From the NCBI GenBank assembly GCA_903847935.1, contig CAINEX010000110.1:1-33804 (forward strand): a stretch of DNA of 33,804 nucleotides, in the 5' to 3' direction. This document shows, one piece after another, positions 2,397-7,326 of this stretch. Numbering within the stretch: position 1 is the first letter of the stretch; each line of letters opens with the position of its first letter. This DNA comes from an uncultured Spartobacteria bacterium. Lineage in GTDB: Bacteria; Verrucomicrobiota; Verrucomicrobiia; Chthoniobacterales; UBA6821. Under the pieces are notes generated by a model, which was not told the DNA's origin, did no database searches, and saw nothing but the letters and a program-made list of their open reading frames with translations. A program made the translations under genes and the position numbers.

Positions 2397-2669
2397 TTAG
2401 TCCTCGTAGTGGGAAGCTTCGTTCAGGATCGAATCTCTCAAGACCCGAGCCAATGAAGAGTCGGCAGTGTGCAGACTCCTTCTCACACGGCGCTTGGTGT
2501 GGTCGGGAAGGTGCTCGGTGTAGTGGCACCACCAGGTGCCGTTGTTGTTCCAGAGGTGGTGGAACGGATTATCGGTGGTCCTGATGGAGAGGACTCCTCT
2601 ATCGGGTGTTGCCCTGCTCTGAAGGGTTGTCCTTGAAGTGCTCGGGTAGGTTGTATTCGCTGTGCTCAT
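2397..2669 (-). CDS. OrfA, copy 1: stand-alone recombinase arm-domain-like protein
   Basis: A 90-residue basic protein. Residues about 26-80 contain GTWWCHYTEH, then KRRVRRSLHT, then a helix SSLARVLRDSIL. This order of two or three beta-strands plus an alpha-helix, with R-R-SL-T between them, is the pattern of the N-terminal arm-binding domain of phage-type tyrosine recombinases. No core-binding or catalytic R-H-R-Y region follows, and the frame ends soon after the helix. Copy 2 at 6674-6898 is identical over SIRTTDNPFHHLWNNNGTWW and beyond, even at DNA level, but has a shorter N-terminus. It heads an operon with orfB1 and orfC1, and its ATG lies three bases after a perfect hairpin. A DNA-binding role is inferred, not shown. 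Confidence 0.75.
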   Translation of the reverse strand: MSTANTTYPSTSRTTLQSRATPDRGVLSIRTTDNPFHHLWNNNGTWWCHYTEHLPDHTKRRVRRSLHTADSSLARVLRDSILNEASHYED

Positions 2670-2672
2670 GTG

Positions 2673-2700
2673 GGTGTTTCAGTTGGTTGGTTGAAACACC
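2673..2700 (-). promoter_or_regulatory. Hairpin abutting the orfA1 start codon
   Basis: On the transcript GGUGUUUCA pairs with UGAAACACC around a 10-nt loop of ACC/AAC repeats, and the stem ends three bases before the ATG. The 9-bp stem is perfect and is repeated exactly at 6902-6929 before orfA2. No Shine-Dalgarno sequence is visible, so the hairpin could occlude or position the ribosome, or bind a protein. Confidence 0.6.
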
Positions 2701-2715
2701 AGGAAACCGGGCAAT

Positions 2716-2748
2716 AAAAAAAGCGCCTCTCCTTCAGGAAAGACGCTT
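2716..2748 (-). terminator. Intrinsic terminator of structured RNA 1
   Basis: Minus-strand AAGCG...CGCTT with mostly paired interior (including TCCT/AGGA) is followed by a run of seven T residues. It lies between the structured RNA and orfA1, so it either ends a separate small RNA or attenuates the orfA1 operon. Confidence 0.75.
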
Positions 2749-2940
2749 ATCAAAGCCTGGAGAGATTGTTGTTCGGAGGATTTCTCCCCTCCGCACATCG
2801 GACGGCTTTCGCCATCCAAACCACCGTGGGATTCTCCATCCTCGGTAGGCAGTCCTTGGTGTTACCCGAGGACATTCCTGATGTTGAAAATAATCTAGCA
2901 TACTCGACCGTGAGGCGCAAATTCCCCGTGTGTCATAAAC
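2716..2940 (-). ncRNA. Candidate structured leader or small RNA, copy 1
   Basis: This gene-free stretch is homologous to 6944-7190. Shared blocks include TATGACACACG at the 5' side, CATCAGGAATG, GTGCGG, GAGAAATCC and a 3' terminator. Helices supported by both copies (window coordinates, minus strand) are: hairpin 2872-2884 (ACAU/AUGU) or the competing pair 2869-2873 with 2852-2856; helix 2843-2848 with 2821-2826 enclosing a GGA/UCC hairpin; a 7-bp hairpin capped by a GAAA tetraloop at 2800-2817; and hairpin 2774-2793. The loop sequence UCAGGAA (2875-2881) is complementary to UUCCUGA in the terminator 5' arm (2734-2740). I could not match it to a riboswitch or ribozyme family from memory. The 5' end is approximate; it begins right after the NPY-repeat gene. 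Confidence 0.65.
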
Positions 2941-2941
2941 T

Positions 2942-3385
2942 TCAAGGACTGATAAGGGAGGGAGCCTCCGTGGCGTAGGGATTACGCGCGCTCTGTGCGC
3001 CATAGGGGCTTCCGTACTGACCGTAGGGGTTGTTGATGCTTTTGGCGGAATAAGGGCTCCCGTACTGGCCGTAGGGATTGGCGGTCGAGACAGCGTCGTA
3101 GGGGTTCGCGCTCTTACGTCCCAGGTAGGTGCCGTCGGGGGCGACGATTCGGGGAGCCTCCGTGGTGTAGGGATTGTTCACGCTGGTGGAGGAGTAGGGA
3201 CTTCCGTACTGGCCGTAGGGATTATGAATGCTCTGCGCTGAATACGGGCTCCCGTATTGGCCGTAGGGATTCCCGGTGGACTTAGAGGCGTACGGGTTGG
3301 CACTGAGTTGGCCCAGGTACTCCTGAGAGTAGGCGCTGGCGGTCATGAGCAAGAGAGGCAGGAGGAGCGGGAGTCTTTTCATCAA
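2942..3385 (-). CDS. Secreted NPYGQYGSPY tandem-repeat protein
   Basis: A 147-residue exported protein with a clear signal peptide (MMKRLPLLLPLLLMTASAYS, cleavage expected near residue 20). The mature part consists of repeats around NPYGQYGSPYSAQSI. It is arranged as two similar halves, each starting with YLGQLSANPY or YLGRKSANPY and ending in NPYTTEAP or NPYATEAP, joined by PRIVAPDGT. Short secreted proteins with this repeat occur in many bacteria and have no established function. The DNA is correspondingly repetitive. It lies between rmuC and structured RNA 1, with a CCTAGG element 20-44 bases upstream of its ATG. Its stop codon is only a few bases before the RNA 1 block, so RNA 1 might be made by processing or read-through of this transcript. 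Confidence 0.8.
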   Translation of the reverse strand: MMKRLPLLLPLLLMTASAYSQEYLGQLSANPYASKSTGNPYGQYGSPYSAQSIHNPYGQYGSPYSSTSVNNPYTTEAPRIVAPDGTYLGRKSANPYDAVSTANPYGQYGSPYSAKSINNPYGQYGSPYGAQSARNPYATEAPSLISP

Positions 3386-3404
3386 GACAGATTAGCACCC
3401 AACC

Positions 3405-3429
3405 CAGACACTGAGTGTCCTAGGCCCTA
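3405..3429. repeat. Dispersed CCTAGG element, copy C
   Basis: GACACTGAGTGTCCTAGGC is identical to copy A over 19 bases and continues with one extra C before CTAAA. It lies between the rmuC stop and the start of the NPY-repeat gene, about 20 bases upstream of that ATG. No T run follows it on the minus strand, so termination is unlikely here. Confidence 0.55.
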
Positions 3430-3475
3430 AAAATAGGGAACTCTTTTTAGAAGCTCAGACTTCAGGGATAGATCC

Positions 3476-4846
3476 TCAACTCTCGGAAATGTTCTGATTC
3501 GATTCCGGGATCTGCAGGAGGCGAGGAACGGTCTCGATCTGGGCAGGCGACTCAATGTTGTCCTGTGAGGAGGCTCCCAGCTCCTTGAACTTCCTTGCGG
3601 AAACGAGCACGCGTGTCTCGAGTGATCCGACCGCCTTGTTGTAGTGGCCGAGGGCTGTATTGAGGGAAACCCCCATCTTGGAAAAGTGCTCAGCGAGTGT
3701 CCCGACCCTGTCGTATAATTCGCGTCCGAGTTGGCTGATCTTTTCCGCGTTCTCGGCGAGTTGCTCCTGGCGCCATCCGTAGGCAACAGCGCGAAGGAGT
3801 GCGATCAAGGTGGTCGGTGTCGCCAGAATCACCTTCTGATCGCTACCCGCCTCGATGAGGGTCGGATCCTGCTCGAGGGCGGCACTGAAGAAGGTCTCTC
3901 CCGGAAGGAAGAGCACGACGAACTCGGGTGTCGGCTGAAACTGGTCCCAGTAGCTCTTGGCACCGAGCTTGGTGATGTGGTCGGCGACCTGTGCGGCGTG
4001 CCGCTTGAGATGAGCGAGCCGGTCGTTCTCCTCGGTGGCAGCGAGGGCGTCGAGGTACCCCTGGAGGGGACACTTCGCATCGATCACGATATTCTTCCCA
4101 CCGGGAAGGTTCACGATGAGGTCAGGGCGGAGTCGTCCGTCCTCGGTGTTCCTGGACTCCTGCTCCCTGAAGTCGCAGCGGTTCACCATACCGGCCATCT
4201 CGACGACCTTGCGAAGCTGGATCTCTCCCCAACGTCCACGGACCTGAGGAGCACGGAGGGCCTTCACCAAGTTGGAGGTCTCCGTCTGGAGCTGGAGCTG
4301 GGAGCGGGCCATGTTTTGGACCTGCTCCTTGAGTCCCTCGTAGGCCCCGACGCGATCCTTCTCGATCTCCCCGATCTTCTTGTCGACGGCCTCGAGTGAT
4401 TTCGTCAGTGGCTCGACGAGGTTCTTGATGGCCTCCTCCTTGGCCGTGAGGTCGGTCTTTGCGCTCTGCTGAAACTTCTCAAGGTTCTCCTTGGCGAGTT
4501 CGAGGAAGGACTGGTTGTTGCTCTTGAGGGCCTCTGCGGAGAGGGCCTTGAAGGCGTCACCGAGCTTCGACTGGGCGTCGTTCAGAAGGTCGAGCTTTTC
4601 CTGGGCGGCGCGTTGGACGTTGGTGAGGTCGGCCTGCAAGGTCGCGTTCTCAAGGGCGATGCGATCCTTCTCTGCACGGAGTCCCAAGACCTCCCCCTCG
4701 AGGATGACAACACGCGCTTCGCTGGAAGAGAGTCGCTCGTTGATGGCCCCCAGTGAGCCGGCGCTTCCTGAGCGCTTGAGGAGGATGAAAACAAGCGGGA
4801 TCAGTCCAATGACCAATCCGATAACAGCTAGAGCGAAGGAGTTCAT
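3476..4846 (-). CDS. rmuC: DNA recombination protein RmuC
   Basis: A 456-residue RmuC-family protein. An N-terminal membrane anchor ([20 protein letters not shown], residues 4-23) is followed by a long coiled coil (about 30-190). The conserved domain follows: [19 protein letters not shown] near residue 200, then [20 protein letters not shown] with DAKCPL, a PD-(D/E)xK-like nuclease core near 240-260, and [14 protein letters not shown] near 310. RmuC limits sequence inversions at short repeats and is thought to be a membrane-tethered nuclease. Length and domain order are normal. It lies between the two duplicated cassettes and is not duplicated itself. The long upstream region contains a 14-bp palindrome and a short tandem repeat. 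Confidence 0.93.
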
Positions 4847-4949
4847 GTGATGATCAGAGGAAAGAAGTTAACGCAAAGTTTGTATCGGAAGAAATCCCAA
4901 GAGCCAATGCCCTCTAGAGGTATGCCTTGGAAGAGTCCGTGACGAGCAC

Positions 4950-4963
4950 GATGAGGCCTCATC
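4950..4963. promoter_or_regulatory. 14-bp perfect palindrome upstream of rmuC
   Basis: GATGAGGCCTCATC is a perfect palindrome about 104 bases before the rmuC ATG. It shares the AGGCCT core with the CCTAGG elements. It could be an operator; nothing in the sequence identifies a regulator. Confidence 0.35.
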
Positions 4964-4982
4964 TGTGGGTTCACAATCACTT

Positions 4983-5021
4983 GGCTCTAAGTTCATCGGC
5001 TCTAGGTTCATCGGCTCATGG
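4983..5021. repeat. 15-bp tandem repeat, about 2.6 units
   Basis: GGCTCTAAGTTCATC is followed directly by GGCTCTAGGTTCATC and a partial third unit GGCTCATGG. It lies in the intergenic region between the cassette 2 metallophosphoesterase and rmuC. It has no coding potential that I can see. Confidence 0.7.
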
Positions 5022-5041
5022 TAGCAGAGGGATTGGTCGTA

Positions 5042-5055
5042 GAGAGTCCTAGGGG
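5042..5055. repeat. Dispersed CCTAGG element, degenerate copy D
   Basis: GAGAGTCCTAGGGG resembles the core of copies A-C (GAGTGTCCTAGGCC) with changes in both flanks. It lies about 20 bases past the stop of the cassette 2 metallophosphoesterase, again at a gene border. It is weaker than the other copies. Confidence 0.35.
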
Positions 5056-5073
5056 GTCTCTTCTGAAAAAGAT

Positions 5074-5874
5074 TTACTCCCCCTTTGACAGTCTCTCGGC
5101 ATTCTGAGCCGGAACCCCCGCCTTCCTATACCGTGCCTGGGCCTTCTTGATGTCGTACTCCACACGGCGCATGAGGAGGAGGTTCTGCTCGTAATCGTAA
5201 AGAGCGTAGGAGGCGCGGACATCGCCATCTCGGGGCTGGCCCACCGACCCGACGTTGACCGTGTAGCGCTTCGAGGGATTGAGTCGGATGGGTTGATCGG
5301 TGGGTTTGAGGGAGCGGACCCCAAAGGTCTCAGGATTCTCCTCCCAAATCCCCGGGACGTGGGTGTGACCATTGAAGCTGATAAAGGTGGTCTGGGCGGC
5401 AAAGTGAGCCTCAGCCTCGGTGGTCTCATAGATGTAGTGGAAATGGCTCGGCTCGTTCAGCGAGGCATGGGAAAGGGTGATCGGGTCTAGGTCCGCGGTG
5501 ATCTGTAGAGCCCTGATCCAAGCCAGATCACTCTTGCTGACCTGCTCCTGGGCAATCTTTAAGGGGTGGCGGAGCGAAACGTCCCAGTCTTCGTCCAAGA
5601 TCTTGTCGGCCAGCAGGAGCATCGCCTCGTGGTTGCCAAGCACGCTCACAGAACAGACCTCCATCACACGATTCAGGCAGGCTCCCGGCTCTGATCCGTA
5701 ACCGACGATATCCCCCAGGCAAAACATTCCCCTCACGGGAAAGTCCGCGATGTCCTTTAAGACAGCCTCCAGGGCGTCGATGTTGGCGTGGATATCACTG
5801 AAGATGGCGAAGAAGTTATTCGTGGATTGAAGGATGTAATTGGACGTCTTGGTGGATTTCTTGGTTTTGGGCAT
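5074..5874 (-). CDS. Calcineurin-like metallophosphoesterase, cassette 2
   Basis: About 266 residues, a clear paralogue of the enzyme at 684-1415. Shared features are SDIHANIDALE, FCLGDIVGYG, VSVLGNHE (an E where copy 1 has D), FNGHTHVPG, and the VNVGSVGQPRD stretch near the C-terminus, followed by YDIKKAQARYRKAG. It carries a short basic Ser/Thr/Lys N-terminal extension (MPKTKKSTKTSN). The GTG at 5943 would extend the frame, but it lies in the T run of an apparent terminator, so the ATG at 5874 is preferred. That ATG follows an AC-rich stretch without a Shine-Dalgarno site. It occupies the same place relative to RNA 2 and orfA2 as copy 1 does in cassette 1. The substrate is unknown. Confidence 0.9.
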   Translation of the reverse strand: MPKTKKSTKTSNYILQSTNNFFAIFSDIHANIDALEAVLKDIADFPVRGMFCLGDIVGYGSEPGACLNRVMEVCSVSVLGNHEAMLLLADKILDEDWDVSLRHPLKIAQEQVSKSDLAWIRALQITADLDPITLSHASLNEPSHFHYIYETTEAEAHFAAQTTFISFNGHTHVPGIWEENPETFGVRSLKPTDQPIRLNPSKRYTVNVGSVGQPRDGDVRASYALYDYEQNLLLMRRVEYDIKKAQARYRKAGVPAQNAERLSKGE

Positions 5875-5932
5875 GGTGGGTTCGTTTGGGTTGGTGGGTG
5901 ATGCTTTGAAGGAGGGGCATGCATTTCGCAAA

Positions 5933-5963
5933 AAAACACACACCCCTCTACCCTTAGGGGAAT
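5933..5963 (-). terminator. Candidate intrinsic terminator after orfC2
   Basis: Minus-strand CCCCT pairs with AGGGG around an 8-nt loop; a short TGTGTG spacer then leads to seven T residues. The stem is short, and the spacer weakens the call. It lies 16-46 bases after the orfC2 stop, as at the matching junction of cassette 1. Confidence 0.45.
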
Positions 5964-5978
5964 ATCCCAGCGCTTTTG

Positions 5979-6449
5979 TTAGGCGATCTGGGTCTTGGTG
6001 TTTTCACCGAGTTCCCTAAGCCGGTACTGGAGTGCCGGAAGGACGAGATCTCCCTCAGCTTCCGCAAAGTGCCAATCGTTGCCCGGACATACCCCGTAGT
6101 AGTACTTGATCTCCCCCACGCTCCTGCCCCCTTCGTCCCTGACGTCACGGTTGGCGAGTTTCAGACCCGCCAGATACTCGAGGGCCTGCGCTTCGGGGCT
6201 ATCCTGGTAGGCGTATCGGCCTTCGAAGTAGTTTTCCCAGACGCGGTAAGGAACTTCATTGTCGAGCCAGTCGCTGCTCTTTCTTCCAAGGTGGTAGTCG
6301 TGCCTGTGCTCGCGGACCCACTTGCCTAGGTCGTTGCGGTCATCGACATTGATCCCCTGATAGTTATCAAGCCAATCCCTCCAGCTGGGGGCCCCGAGAG
6401 CTGCCGCACCGCTGATGAGGAAATGCCTTCTGGAGAGATTAGTGCTCAT
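5979..6449 (-). CDS. Tat-exported uncharacterised protein, orfC of cassette 2
   Basis: A 156-residue protein beginning MSTNLSRRHFLISGAAALGA, which fits a twin-arginine signal (SRRHFL, then a short hydrophobic and alanine-rich segment). The mature part is aromatic and charged (WRDWLDNYQGINVDDRNDLG, VWENYFEGRYAY, IKYYYGVCPGNDWHFAEAE) and looks globular. I recognise no family, and no cofactor motif is visible. Tat export implies folding in the cytoplasm before transport. Its ATG overlaps the end of orfB2 by 11 bases, so translation is coupled. It is the last gene of the orfA2 operon; its cassette 1 counterpart (1524-2066) has no similar sequence and no signal peptide. Confidence 0.75.
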   Translation of the reverse strand: MSTNLSRRHFLISGAAALGAPSWRDWLDNYQGINVDDRNDLGKWVREHRHDYHLGRKSSDWLDNEVPYRVWENYFEGRYAYQDSPEAQALEYLAGLKLANRDVRDEGGRSVGEIKYYYGVCPGNDWHFAEAEGDLVLPALQYRLRELGENTKTQIA

Positions 6450-6648
6450 CGGGATCGGGGCGGATCGTTTTGGCGACGTTCTGCACCCCTAGGAAAAGGC
6501 CCATGTAGGTGCTCTCTGCCAACTCGTCCGCAAAACTACGAAAGGTTGGATCCTGACGTGTACTCAGCCTCTCGGAGAGTTCCTGCAATCGTTGAAGGTC
6601 GCTCAAAGGGGCTGGTTCCTGATCCGAGGGTGTCTGTGGAGTGCTCAT
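6439..6648 (-). CDS. Small uncharacterised protein, orfB of cassette 2
   Basis: A 69-residue hydrophilic protein starting MSTPQTPSDQEPAPLSDL, with a probable helix over LQRLQELSERLS and a second one over SFADELAESTYMGLFLGVQN. The C-terminus is charged (RPDPDEH). I do not recognise it. It overlaps orfC2 by 11 bases and follows orfA2 by 25 bases. Such overlap makes it probable that it is translated, despite its small size and the lack of a clear Shine-Dalgarno site. It shares no obvious similarity with orfB1. Confidence 0.65.
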   Translation of the reverse strand: MSTPQTPSDQEPAPLSDLQRLQELSERLSTRQDPTFRSFADELAESTYMGLFLGVQNVAKTIRPDPDEH

Positions 6649-6673
6649 CGGTGGTTATGAGGAGGTGATAAGG

Positions 6674-6898
6674 CTAGGCCTCGAAGTGAGGGGCTTCGCT
6701 AAGGAGAGAATCCCGTAATACCCTCGCGATGCCAGAGTCGCTTGTATGGAGGCTCCTCCTCACACGACGCTTGGTGTGGTCGGGAAGGTGCTCGGTGTAG
6801 TGGCACCACCAGGTGCCGTTGTTGTTCCAGAGGTGGTGGAACGGATTATCGGTGGTCCTGATTGAAAGGACCGGCCTGTCGAGTGTTGCTGTGCTCAT
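6674..6898 (-). CDS. OrfA, copy 2: stand-alone recombinase arm-domain-like protein
   Basis: A 74-residue basic protein, MSTATLDRPVLSIRTTDNPF onward, identical to copy 1 through the central block ending KRRVRRSLHT and similar in the final helix (SGIARVLRDSLLSEAP). The layout W-W-x-x-Y, basic strand with SL-T, then an alanine/arginine helix resembles the arm-binding domain of tyrosine recombinases, without the rest of the enzyme. About 100 bp of DNA is nearly identical between the copies (positions about 6737-6860 and 2482-2600), much more than in the flanking RNA, so recent conversion or strong constraint is likely. It is preceded by the same start-codon hairpin and by RNA 2. Confidence 0.75.
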   Translation of the reverse strand: MSTATLDRPVLSIRTTDNPFHHLWNNNGTWWCHYTEHLPDHTKRRVRRSLHTSDSGIARVLRDSLLSEAPHFEA

Positions 6899-6901
6899 GT
6901 G

Positions 6902-6929
6902 GGTGTTTCAGTTGGTTGGTTGAAACACC
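6902..6929 (-). promoter_or_regulatory. Hairpin abutting the orfA2 start codon
   Basis: The stem, loop and distance to the ATG are the same as at 2673-2700: GGUGUUUCA with UGAAACACC and three bases to the start codon. Exact conservation, while the terminator stem upstream has diverged, suggests that the sequence itself matters. Confidence 0.6.
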
Positions 6930-6943
6930 AGGAACCCGGGCAA

Positions 6944-6987
6944 TAAAAAAAGCGCCCCGATGATCGGAAGATCAGGAAGGGCGCTTT
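6944..6987 (-). terminator. Intrinsic terminator of structured RNA 2
   Basis: Minus-strand AAAGCGCCC and GGGCGCTTT enclose an inner TGATC/GATCA hairpin with a TTCC loop, followed by a T run. The stem differs from that of RNA 1 in most inner positions but keeps the same base and the UUCCUGA sequence of the 5' arm. Confidence 0.8.
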
Positions 6988-7190
6988 GAAAAAGCCTGAA
7001 GAGATTTTTGTTCGGCGGATTTCTCCCGCCGCACATCGATCGAATCGCTTCGATCAGCCACCGTAGGATTTCTCCGTCCCCGGTTGGCAGCACTGGCTAT
7101 TACCCCAATGCATTCCTGATGCTTGTACTTGGATAGCAGAACTCCCCACCCGATGCAAGCCACGGCGGTAAACTTCGTGTGTCATAGTCA
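6944..7190 (-). ncRNA. Candidate structured leader or small RNA, copy 2
   Basis: Homologous to 2716-2940. Helices on the minus strand: hairpin 7110-7122 (GCAU/AUGC, loop CAGGA), competing with 7107-7111 paired to 7090-7094; helix 7081-7086 with 7058-7063 enclosing hairpin 7066-7075 (GGA-GAAA-UCC); 7-bp hairpin 7038-7055 with a GCGA tetraloop; hairpin 7013-7031 with a GAGAAAU loop; and the terminator. Compared with copy 1, most pairs of the tetraloop hairpin changed on both sides while pairing and the GNRA loop were kept. AUCAGGAA (7113-7120) is perfectly complementary over 8 bases to the terminator 5' arm (6971-6978), a possible antiterminator. A weak promoter-like pair (TTAACG, 17 bp, TATGAC) lies just upstream. 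The 5' end is approximate. Confidence 0.65.
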
Positions 7191-7326
7191 TAGGGATGAG
7201 GTCCCTGGGCGTTAAGGTTATGGTGGTGTTGAATGTAATGGGGCTAAAGAGAGTGGGGTGGGATATTCACAAAGGCTCTAAAACCGATTGGTTGCCGCCA
7301 AGGGGCAAGCTGATAAAAATACAGGC

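Follow-up and report, generated by a model that had tools for sequence, protein, structure and literature searches.

The window, the whole 33,804-nucleotide stretch of DNA analysed here, comes from an uncultured Spartobacteria bacterium and carries on its minus strand two copies of a structured RNA. To which class does this RNA belong, and what does it control? With few exceptions, riboswitches act on enzymes or transporters that belong to the pathway of their ligand. An earlier note, made from the sequence, had placed both copies correctly and had read their paired changes as selection on RNA structure, which holds, but had matched them to no known class, which does not. With high confidence, the locus is read here as a SAM-I/IV leader in a one-gene unit, acting as a SAM-off switch that would be built on the 5' strand of P1 and followed by a gene for a small protein resembling the arm-type domain of recombinases.

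Identification of the RNA class

A permissive Rfam scan of positions 2600-7300 matched copy B to the SAM-I/IV riboswitch model RF01725, which belongs to the SAM clan CL00012, with 45.1 bits, above the gathering cut-off of 41.1 bits; copy A obtained 36.8 bits, under the cut-off. A third copy, on another contig of the same genome, reached 36.3 bits and the Opitutae RNAs 26.9-35.8 bits, also under the cut-off; many homologues from the same genus exceed it. A covariance model built for this RNA, R1, recovers all three genomic copies (copy A, which is a training sequence of R1, scores 135.4 bits). When the whole window was scanned at the Rfam gathering thresholds with default filters, only a tRNA was returned and both copies were missed, and an RF01725 scan across the whole genome of the same organism gave no match, apparently as a filter effect; default-filter Rfam scans can overlook such SAM-I/IV members. 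The two-copy RNA is, judged from its sequence, a SAM-I/IV-class riboswitch aptamer and as such is expected to bind SAM.

The RF01725 match refutes the novelty of the RNA class. Since the class is already known, what is new lies in the downstream gene family, the alternative pairing and the upstream box, all three absent from the earlier note, although its range for copy B, 6944-7190, also takes in the terminator (about 6945-6984) and the box (7178-7186). A literature search, which covered few subscription papers, found no paper on SAM riboswitches in Verrucomicrobia and none that names DUF6538; to our knowledge, and within the literature searched, there is no earlier description of the protein family under this control, of a platform on the 5' strand or of the phased box. 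Table 1 collects the features of the two copies.

Table 1. Features of the two riboswitch-gene units in the window
Feature	Position	Strand	Remarks
SAM-I/IV riboswitch aptamer, copy B	6997..7127	-	RF01725, covariation, pseudoknot test
SAM-I/IV riboswitch aptamer, copy A	2758..2889	-	RF01725 below cut-off; R1 model
P1, copy B	7118-7122/7033-7037	-
P2, copy B	7107-7111/7090-7094	-
P3, copy B	7057-7088	-	holds ACCG/CGGU element
P4, copy B	7038-7055	-
P5, copy B	7013-7031	-
L3/3'-tail pseudoknot, copy B	7071-7075/7000-7004	-
Putative intrinsic terminator, copy B	6945..6984	-	5' half with TTCCTGAT (6971-6978), complementary to P1 5' strand
Putative intrinsic terminator, copy A	2714..2748	-	folds as hairpin
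Putative antisequestor, copy B (GTTCCTGGTGTTT)	6923..6935	-	pairs with P1 5' strand + J1/2 (7112-7124)
Putative antisequestor, copy A	2694..2705	-
Start-codon-proximal hairpin, copy B (GGTGTTTCA/TGAAACACC)	6902..6929	-	5' arm overlaps antisequestor; dG -10.9 vs -2.0 shuffled
Start-codon-proximal hairpin, copy A	2673..2700	-	dG -10.9 vs -2.4 shuffled
Basic arm-domain-like protein, 74 aa, copy B	6677..6898	-
Basic arm-domain-like protein, 90 aa, copy A	2400..2669	-
TATGACACA box, candidate operator, copy B	7178..7186	-	start 28 bp upstream of -35-like TTGCAT (7153-7158)
TATGACACA box, candidate operator, copy A	2929..2937	-	start 17 bp upstream of -35-like TTGCGC

Aptamer architecture and covariation

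Homologues were gathered through DNA, Rfam and protein searches and aligned in two ways: 26 of them with MAFFT from sequence only, and 69 with a covariance model, an alignment that is, differently from the first, fitted to the structure. The MAFFT alignment has standard pairs in 96.4% of the cells of helices P1-P5, against 35-46% when the partners are slid by 1-3 columns, and both sides have changed at 21 of the 33 pairs, a value equalled by none of 500 shuffles; in the model-aligned set 94.5% of the cells have standard pairs and 26/33 pairs have changed on both sides. The helices named in the earlier note, corresponding to P4, P5, P2 and the ACCG/CGGU element in P3, are therefore real, and the GNRA-type loops it had seen are visible in P4 (GCGA/GAAA) and P5 (GGA-GAAA-UCC).

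The contact residues point to the same class. The columns corresponding to the SAM-contact nucleotides listed for SAM-I (PMC6890682) are conserved at 0.99-1.00 among the 69 sequences (columns 11, 13, 15, 16, 95, 136, 137 and 215) or at 0.90 (column 94); J1/2 A-x-G-A, the AA of P3 (0.90 and 0.99), the opposing U-G and a U-A pair of P1 are near-invariant. L3 GGAGA pairs with the tail UCUCC 3' of P5 and the extensions of this pseudoknot are matched (UGGAGA/UCUCCA, CGGAGA/UCUCCG, AGGAGA/UCUCCU), the mean longest pairing being 5.8, versus 4.3 in shuffled sequences.

P2 is one short continuous helix with a single bulged base, and the lack of an internal loop in P2 is what sets SAM-I/IV apart from both SAM-I and SAM-IV (PMC2864571). 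The RNA shares with SAM-I/IV (RF01725) the P1-P3 core, the SAM-contact nucleotides, the loop-free P2, P5 and the L3/3'-tail pseudoknot; it differs from the Rfam model in P4, which covaries strongly here (6/7 pairs in the MAFFT alignment) and is left unpaired there. With SAM-I (S-box, RF00162) it has in common the SAM-binding core and a P4-like hairpin, but not the internal loop and kink-turn of P2. As in SAM-IV, P5 is followed by the 3' strand of PK-2, which pairs with L3 (as described in PMC6890682); unlike SAM-IV, a covarying P4 is present and P2 is undivided.

The expression platform

In P1-regulated riboswitches it is the 3' strand of P1 that forms the alternative structure, according to a 2024 review (PMC11477058). 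Here, differently from SAM-I/IV (RF01725) too, the switch appears to be built on the 5' strand of P1, an arrangement that is not claimed to be unprecedented among all riboswitches. Abundant SAM would hold P1 (CAUC/GAUG) together; the terminator and the start-codon hairpin could then form and the gene would be off. At low SAM, this would be reversed: the 5' strand of P1 with J1/2 (CAUCAGGAA) would pair first with UUCCUGAU in the terminator and next with UUCCUGGUG directly before the start codon; this alternative pairing would break P1 and block the start-codon hairpin, turning the gene on. The direction of the switch, off with SAM and on at low SAM, is a prediction.

A downstream complement to the 5' strand of P1 is present in 60 of 68 loci when the variable base is allowed for, versus 6.3% of shuffled regions. 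Within the genus of the window, the complement to this strand and J1/2 reads TTCCTGGTGT or TTCCTGATGT and is 11-13 pairs long in most leaders; it reaches 13 bp in Opitutae. The variable J1/2 base and the downstream base opposite to it change together, as G:C in 60/63 segments, C:G in 7/7 and A:T in 4/4, counts that come from related sequences and reflect few independent covariation events, since the C-class is confined to one clade, Opitutae, and the A-class comes from about two. This base is unpaired in the aptamer, whose structure therefore cannot explain the covariation; such behaviour, unpaired there yet covarying downstream, is a clear-cut mark of a switch built on the P1 5' strand and can be put to the test.

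In 52 of 56 loci the antisequestor also forms the 5' arm of a hairpin next to the start codon, the 3' arm stopping within 10 nt of the codon's end. The mean energy of this hairpin is -8.0 kcal/mol, versus -3.5 kcal/mol after shuffling; the arms diverge and the pairing is kept (GGTGTTTCA/TGAAACACC, TGATGCGTT/AACGCATCA, TGGTGTGC/GCGCACCA). A T-run lies 3' of the aptamer in 51/63 leaders, and in 43 of these 51 the 5' strand of P1 can form at least six contiguous pairs with the terminator region, where 8.1 would be expected. Folding of copy B in the ligand-free state gives the long-range helix as minimum free energy (MFE) structure, at -92.8 versus -88.7 with P1, so that forcing P1 costs 4.1 kcal/mol; in the unconstrained MFE of copy A (-94.7) the start hairpin is retained, and a fold with the long-range helix lies 1.1 kcal/mol higher. 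The computed energies of copy B fit a SAM-off switch and those of copy A are less clear. Long-range helix and terminator coexist in the MFE, and what would speak for antitermination is solely the conserved complementarity.

The downstream protein family

Both riboswitch copies precede a gene for a small basic protein, and a search of the genome collection located its family 402 times. Of these matches, the 80 best bear Verrucomicrobiota names, except for a few bins that seem mislabelled; no relatives were found in viral contigs, phages or plasmids. The two proteins of the window give dN 0.077 and dS 0.66, and a ratio of 0.04 was obtained against one relative; with dN/dS values of about 0.04-0.12, the protein is under purifying selection.

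The mean net charge of the family is about +5 and the predicted fold is beta-beta-beta-alpha (model pLDDT 86). At E <= 0.1, DUF6538 (PF20172) was matched by 41 of 44 members, the best at 8.3e-7, and Arm-DNA-bind_3 (PF13356) by 3/44; the window protein itself scores 17.7 bits against DUF6538, below the curated Pfam cut-off of 27. After structural re-ranking the top VIA row was the integrase arm-type domain 3jtz (Z 4.4, rmsd 2.2 A, 50 aligned), which ties with unrelated folds; Foldseek searches of the PDB with two models returned nothing significant, and in a viral library the matches, at E 0.02-0.5, were to integrases and to unknown proteins. A PDB sequence search retrieved mostly beta-propeller proteins through repeated short segments and was judged spurious. 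A search with PF20172 in the relatives, aimed at full integrases, returned a single small-protein locus only.

The protein shares with the arm-type domain of tyrosine recombinases (DUF6538, Arm-DNA-bind_3, 3jtz) the order of strands and helix, as predicted by the model, the profile matches and the pattern G-x-W-W...R-R-V-R-x-S-L-x-T...A-R...R-D; it differs from recombinase arm domains in being stand-alone, with no catalytic domain, in its predicted riboswitch control and in scoring below the curated Pfam cut-off. By sequence and model it thus resembles a stand-alone integrase arm-type DNA-binding domain, a likeness that falls short of proven membership, and it probably binds DNA.

Association of RNA and gene across genomes

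A survey of 197 genomes of the order counted 89 genes for the protein: 63 lie downstream of the RNA on the same strand, at a distance of 18-487 nt, and 26 have no upstream RNA; RNA and protein occur together in 48 genomes, the RNA without the protein in 7 and the protein without the RNA in 6. When 80 loci selected by the protein were scanned on both strands (367,870 bases), 66 of the 69 matches to the RNA model lay directly upstream of the protein gene and on its strand. The RNA thus stands almost exclusively before the small arm-domain-like protein and not, as in SAM-I/IV (RF01725), before methionine genes; one small protein of this kind, so far uncharacterised, is what accompanies a SAM riboswitch throughout Verrucomicrobiota. 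A constant partner gene was sought and none was found, since the neighbours vary, the commonest being a MoxR-type AAA gene in 8/93. Given this lack of conserved neighbours, and the near-random strands on which they lie, riboswitch and small-protein gene probably form a one-gene, monocistronic transcription unit.

Some features of the loci touch on their history. The two copies of the window share a stretch of 69 nt that is 99% identical (2659-2727 and 6888-6956) and spans the terminator 3' half, the antisequestor, the start hairpin and the start codon, whereas the aptamers are only about 77% identical; this suggests recent gene conversion or a very strong constraint. A direct repeat of 168 nt with 75% identity (2960-3127 and 3152-3319) lies just upstream of the copy A promoter. 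Elsewhere, two contigs of one bin (L107 and L108) hardly differ in the surroundings of the small gene, and each begins within the riboswitch, which suggests an assembly break caused by a repeat.

Upstream box and promoter

Upstream of the aptamer, at 53-88 nt, the motif TATGACA is found in 72 of 76 loci, versus 0.8% of shuffles, and 56 of the 76 carry the full TATGACACA. The distance from the start of the box to a -35-like TTG is 17 bp in 42 loci, 27-28 in 18 and 38 in 4, the few other offsets deriving from the automatic choice of the -35. Spacing in increments of 10-11 bp hints at a regulator that, once bound to the DNA, has to face the promoter, and makes the box a candidate operator, helically phased.

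The genome of the window contains seven TATGACACA sites, three at riboswitches, two in coding sequence and two beside an integrase/AlpA-like gene pair. The last two (L169 and L170; G000:C73, 36225 and 37593) lie beside the gene for a 413-aa tyrosine integrase, itself adjacent to a tRNA, and upstream of a gene of AlpA/Xis-like type; the box may thus have some connection with an integrated element. A TATGACACA regulon was also sought in other genomes of the genus, where the sites read outside riboswitches lie mostly within open frames, and no box was found upstream of SAM-I leaders. In genomes that carry the protein, the box is present at RNAs of the same model preceding ThiS operons, YbjN and TPR genes; in genomes without detected protein, 6 of 8 RNAs are without box, including one before metK, and two keep it (G044, G053). 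Because the box largely follows the presence of the protein across genomes, binding of TATGACACA by the small protein is a plausible hypothesis; the box would be the site of this protein or of some other regulator.

Alternative explanations and meaning

A first alternative, in favour of which the aptamer class is certain enough, is an ordinary SAM-I/IV riboswitch with a conventional platform, the 3' strand of P1 serving as anti-terminator and the complements of the 5' strand being fortuitous or derived from repeats. The 3' strand is the usual switching strand (PMC11477058) and the downstream segments do hold GATG/GGTG, which mimics it; yet the complement runs beyond P1 into J1/2, where a variable base that is unpaired in the aptamer covaries in three versions, it extends up to 13 bp in Opitutae, and in 52/56 loci the segment doubles as the 5' arm of the start-codon hairpin, so that we regard this explanation as improbable. 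Lower still, close to negligible, is the chance that the two-copy sequence belongs to a mobile element or a repeat, or is a structured small RNA acting in trans, and no leader of the protein gene, with the 5' strand of P1 and its downstream partner as terminal inverted repeats. The presence of two copies within 4.2 kb, their nearly identical 69-nt stretch, the likeness of the protein to integrase arm domains and the terminator after the aptamer could be read in that sense, but RNA and gene are co-located on the same strand at short spacing across many families, the neighbours vary without any element structure, and the start-codon hairpin and the SAM-contact bases are conserved. No relatives were found in the phage, plasmid and viral collections.

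A SAM-off switch on the 5' strand of P1 would stand even if the protein had another function, for instance as an RNA-binding or metabolic accessory of sulfur/SAM metabolism, the box then belonging to an unrelated factor or to the promoter. The fold matches are weak, other genes (ThiS, YbjN and unknown ones) have the same riboswitch and box in front of them, and the box is kept in G044 and G053, where the protein was not detected; nearly all members, on the other hand, match DUF6538/arm-domain profiles, and the beta-beta-beta-alpha model, the charge of about +5 and the arm-type domain in the top VIA row argue for DNA binding. This other function is a serious contender, if short of an even chance. 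We put forward just as tentatively, and as something we would not yet count on, a phylum-wide two-layer SAM circuit, in which an antiterminator/antisequestor riboswitch acting through the 5' strand of P1 would control a stand-alone integrase-arm-type factor that binds the helically phased TATGACACA box, placed before its own promoter and before a few other genes with SAM riboswitches. If the protein is a regulator, the SAM level would feed a transcription factor and not the pathway directly; if the whole circuit holds, the protein would be a regulator that descends from a recombinase domain and is fed by a riboswitch.

Related RNAs in other contexts

RNAs of the same model precede metK in one genome (L225, G149:C380, without the box) and ThiS-family operons in two others. 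At L007 (G014:C24) and L204 (G001:C108), riboswitch and box lie upstream of a gene for a 96-aa unknown protein (GWGFQPLEPLSE), which is followed by that of a ThiS-family sulfur carrier. SAM-I/IV-type RNAs were also found upstream of a family of 209-270-aa proteins (L147 and L149; G044, G035), one member of which was searched against Pfam and gave no match. A close relative without the small protein carries a decayed riboswitch, with P1 broken and no gene behind it (L143/L206, G002:C3). Canonical SAM-I riboswitches are represented by two matches in the genome of the window, and one SAM-I riboswitch, at L164 (G000:C72), lies upstream of a threonine-synthase-like PLP enzyme.
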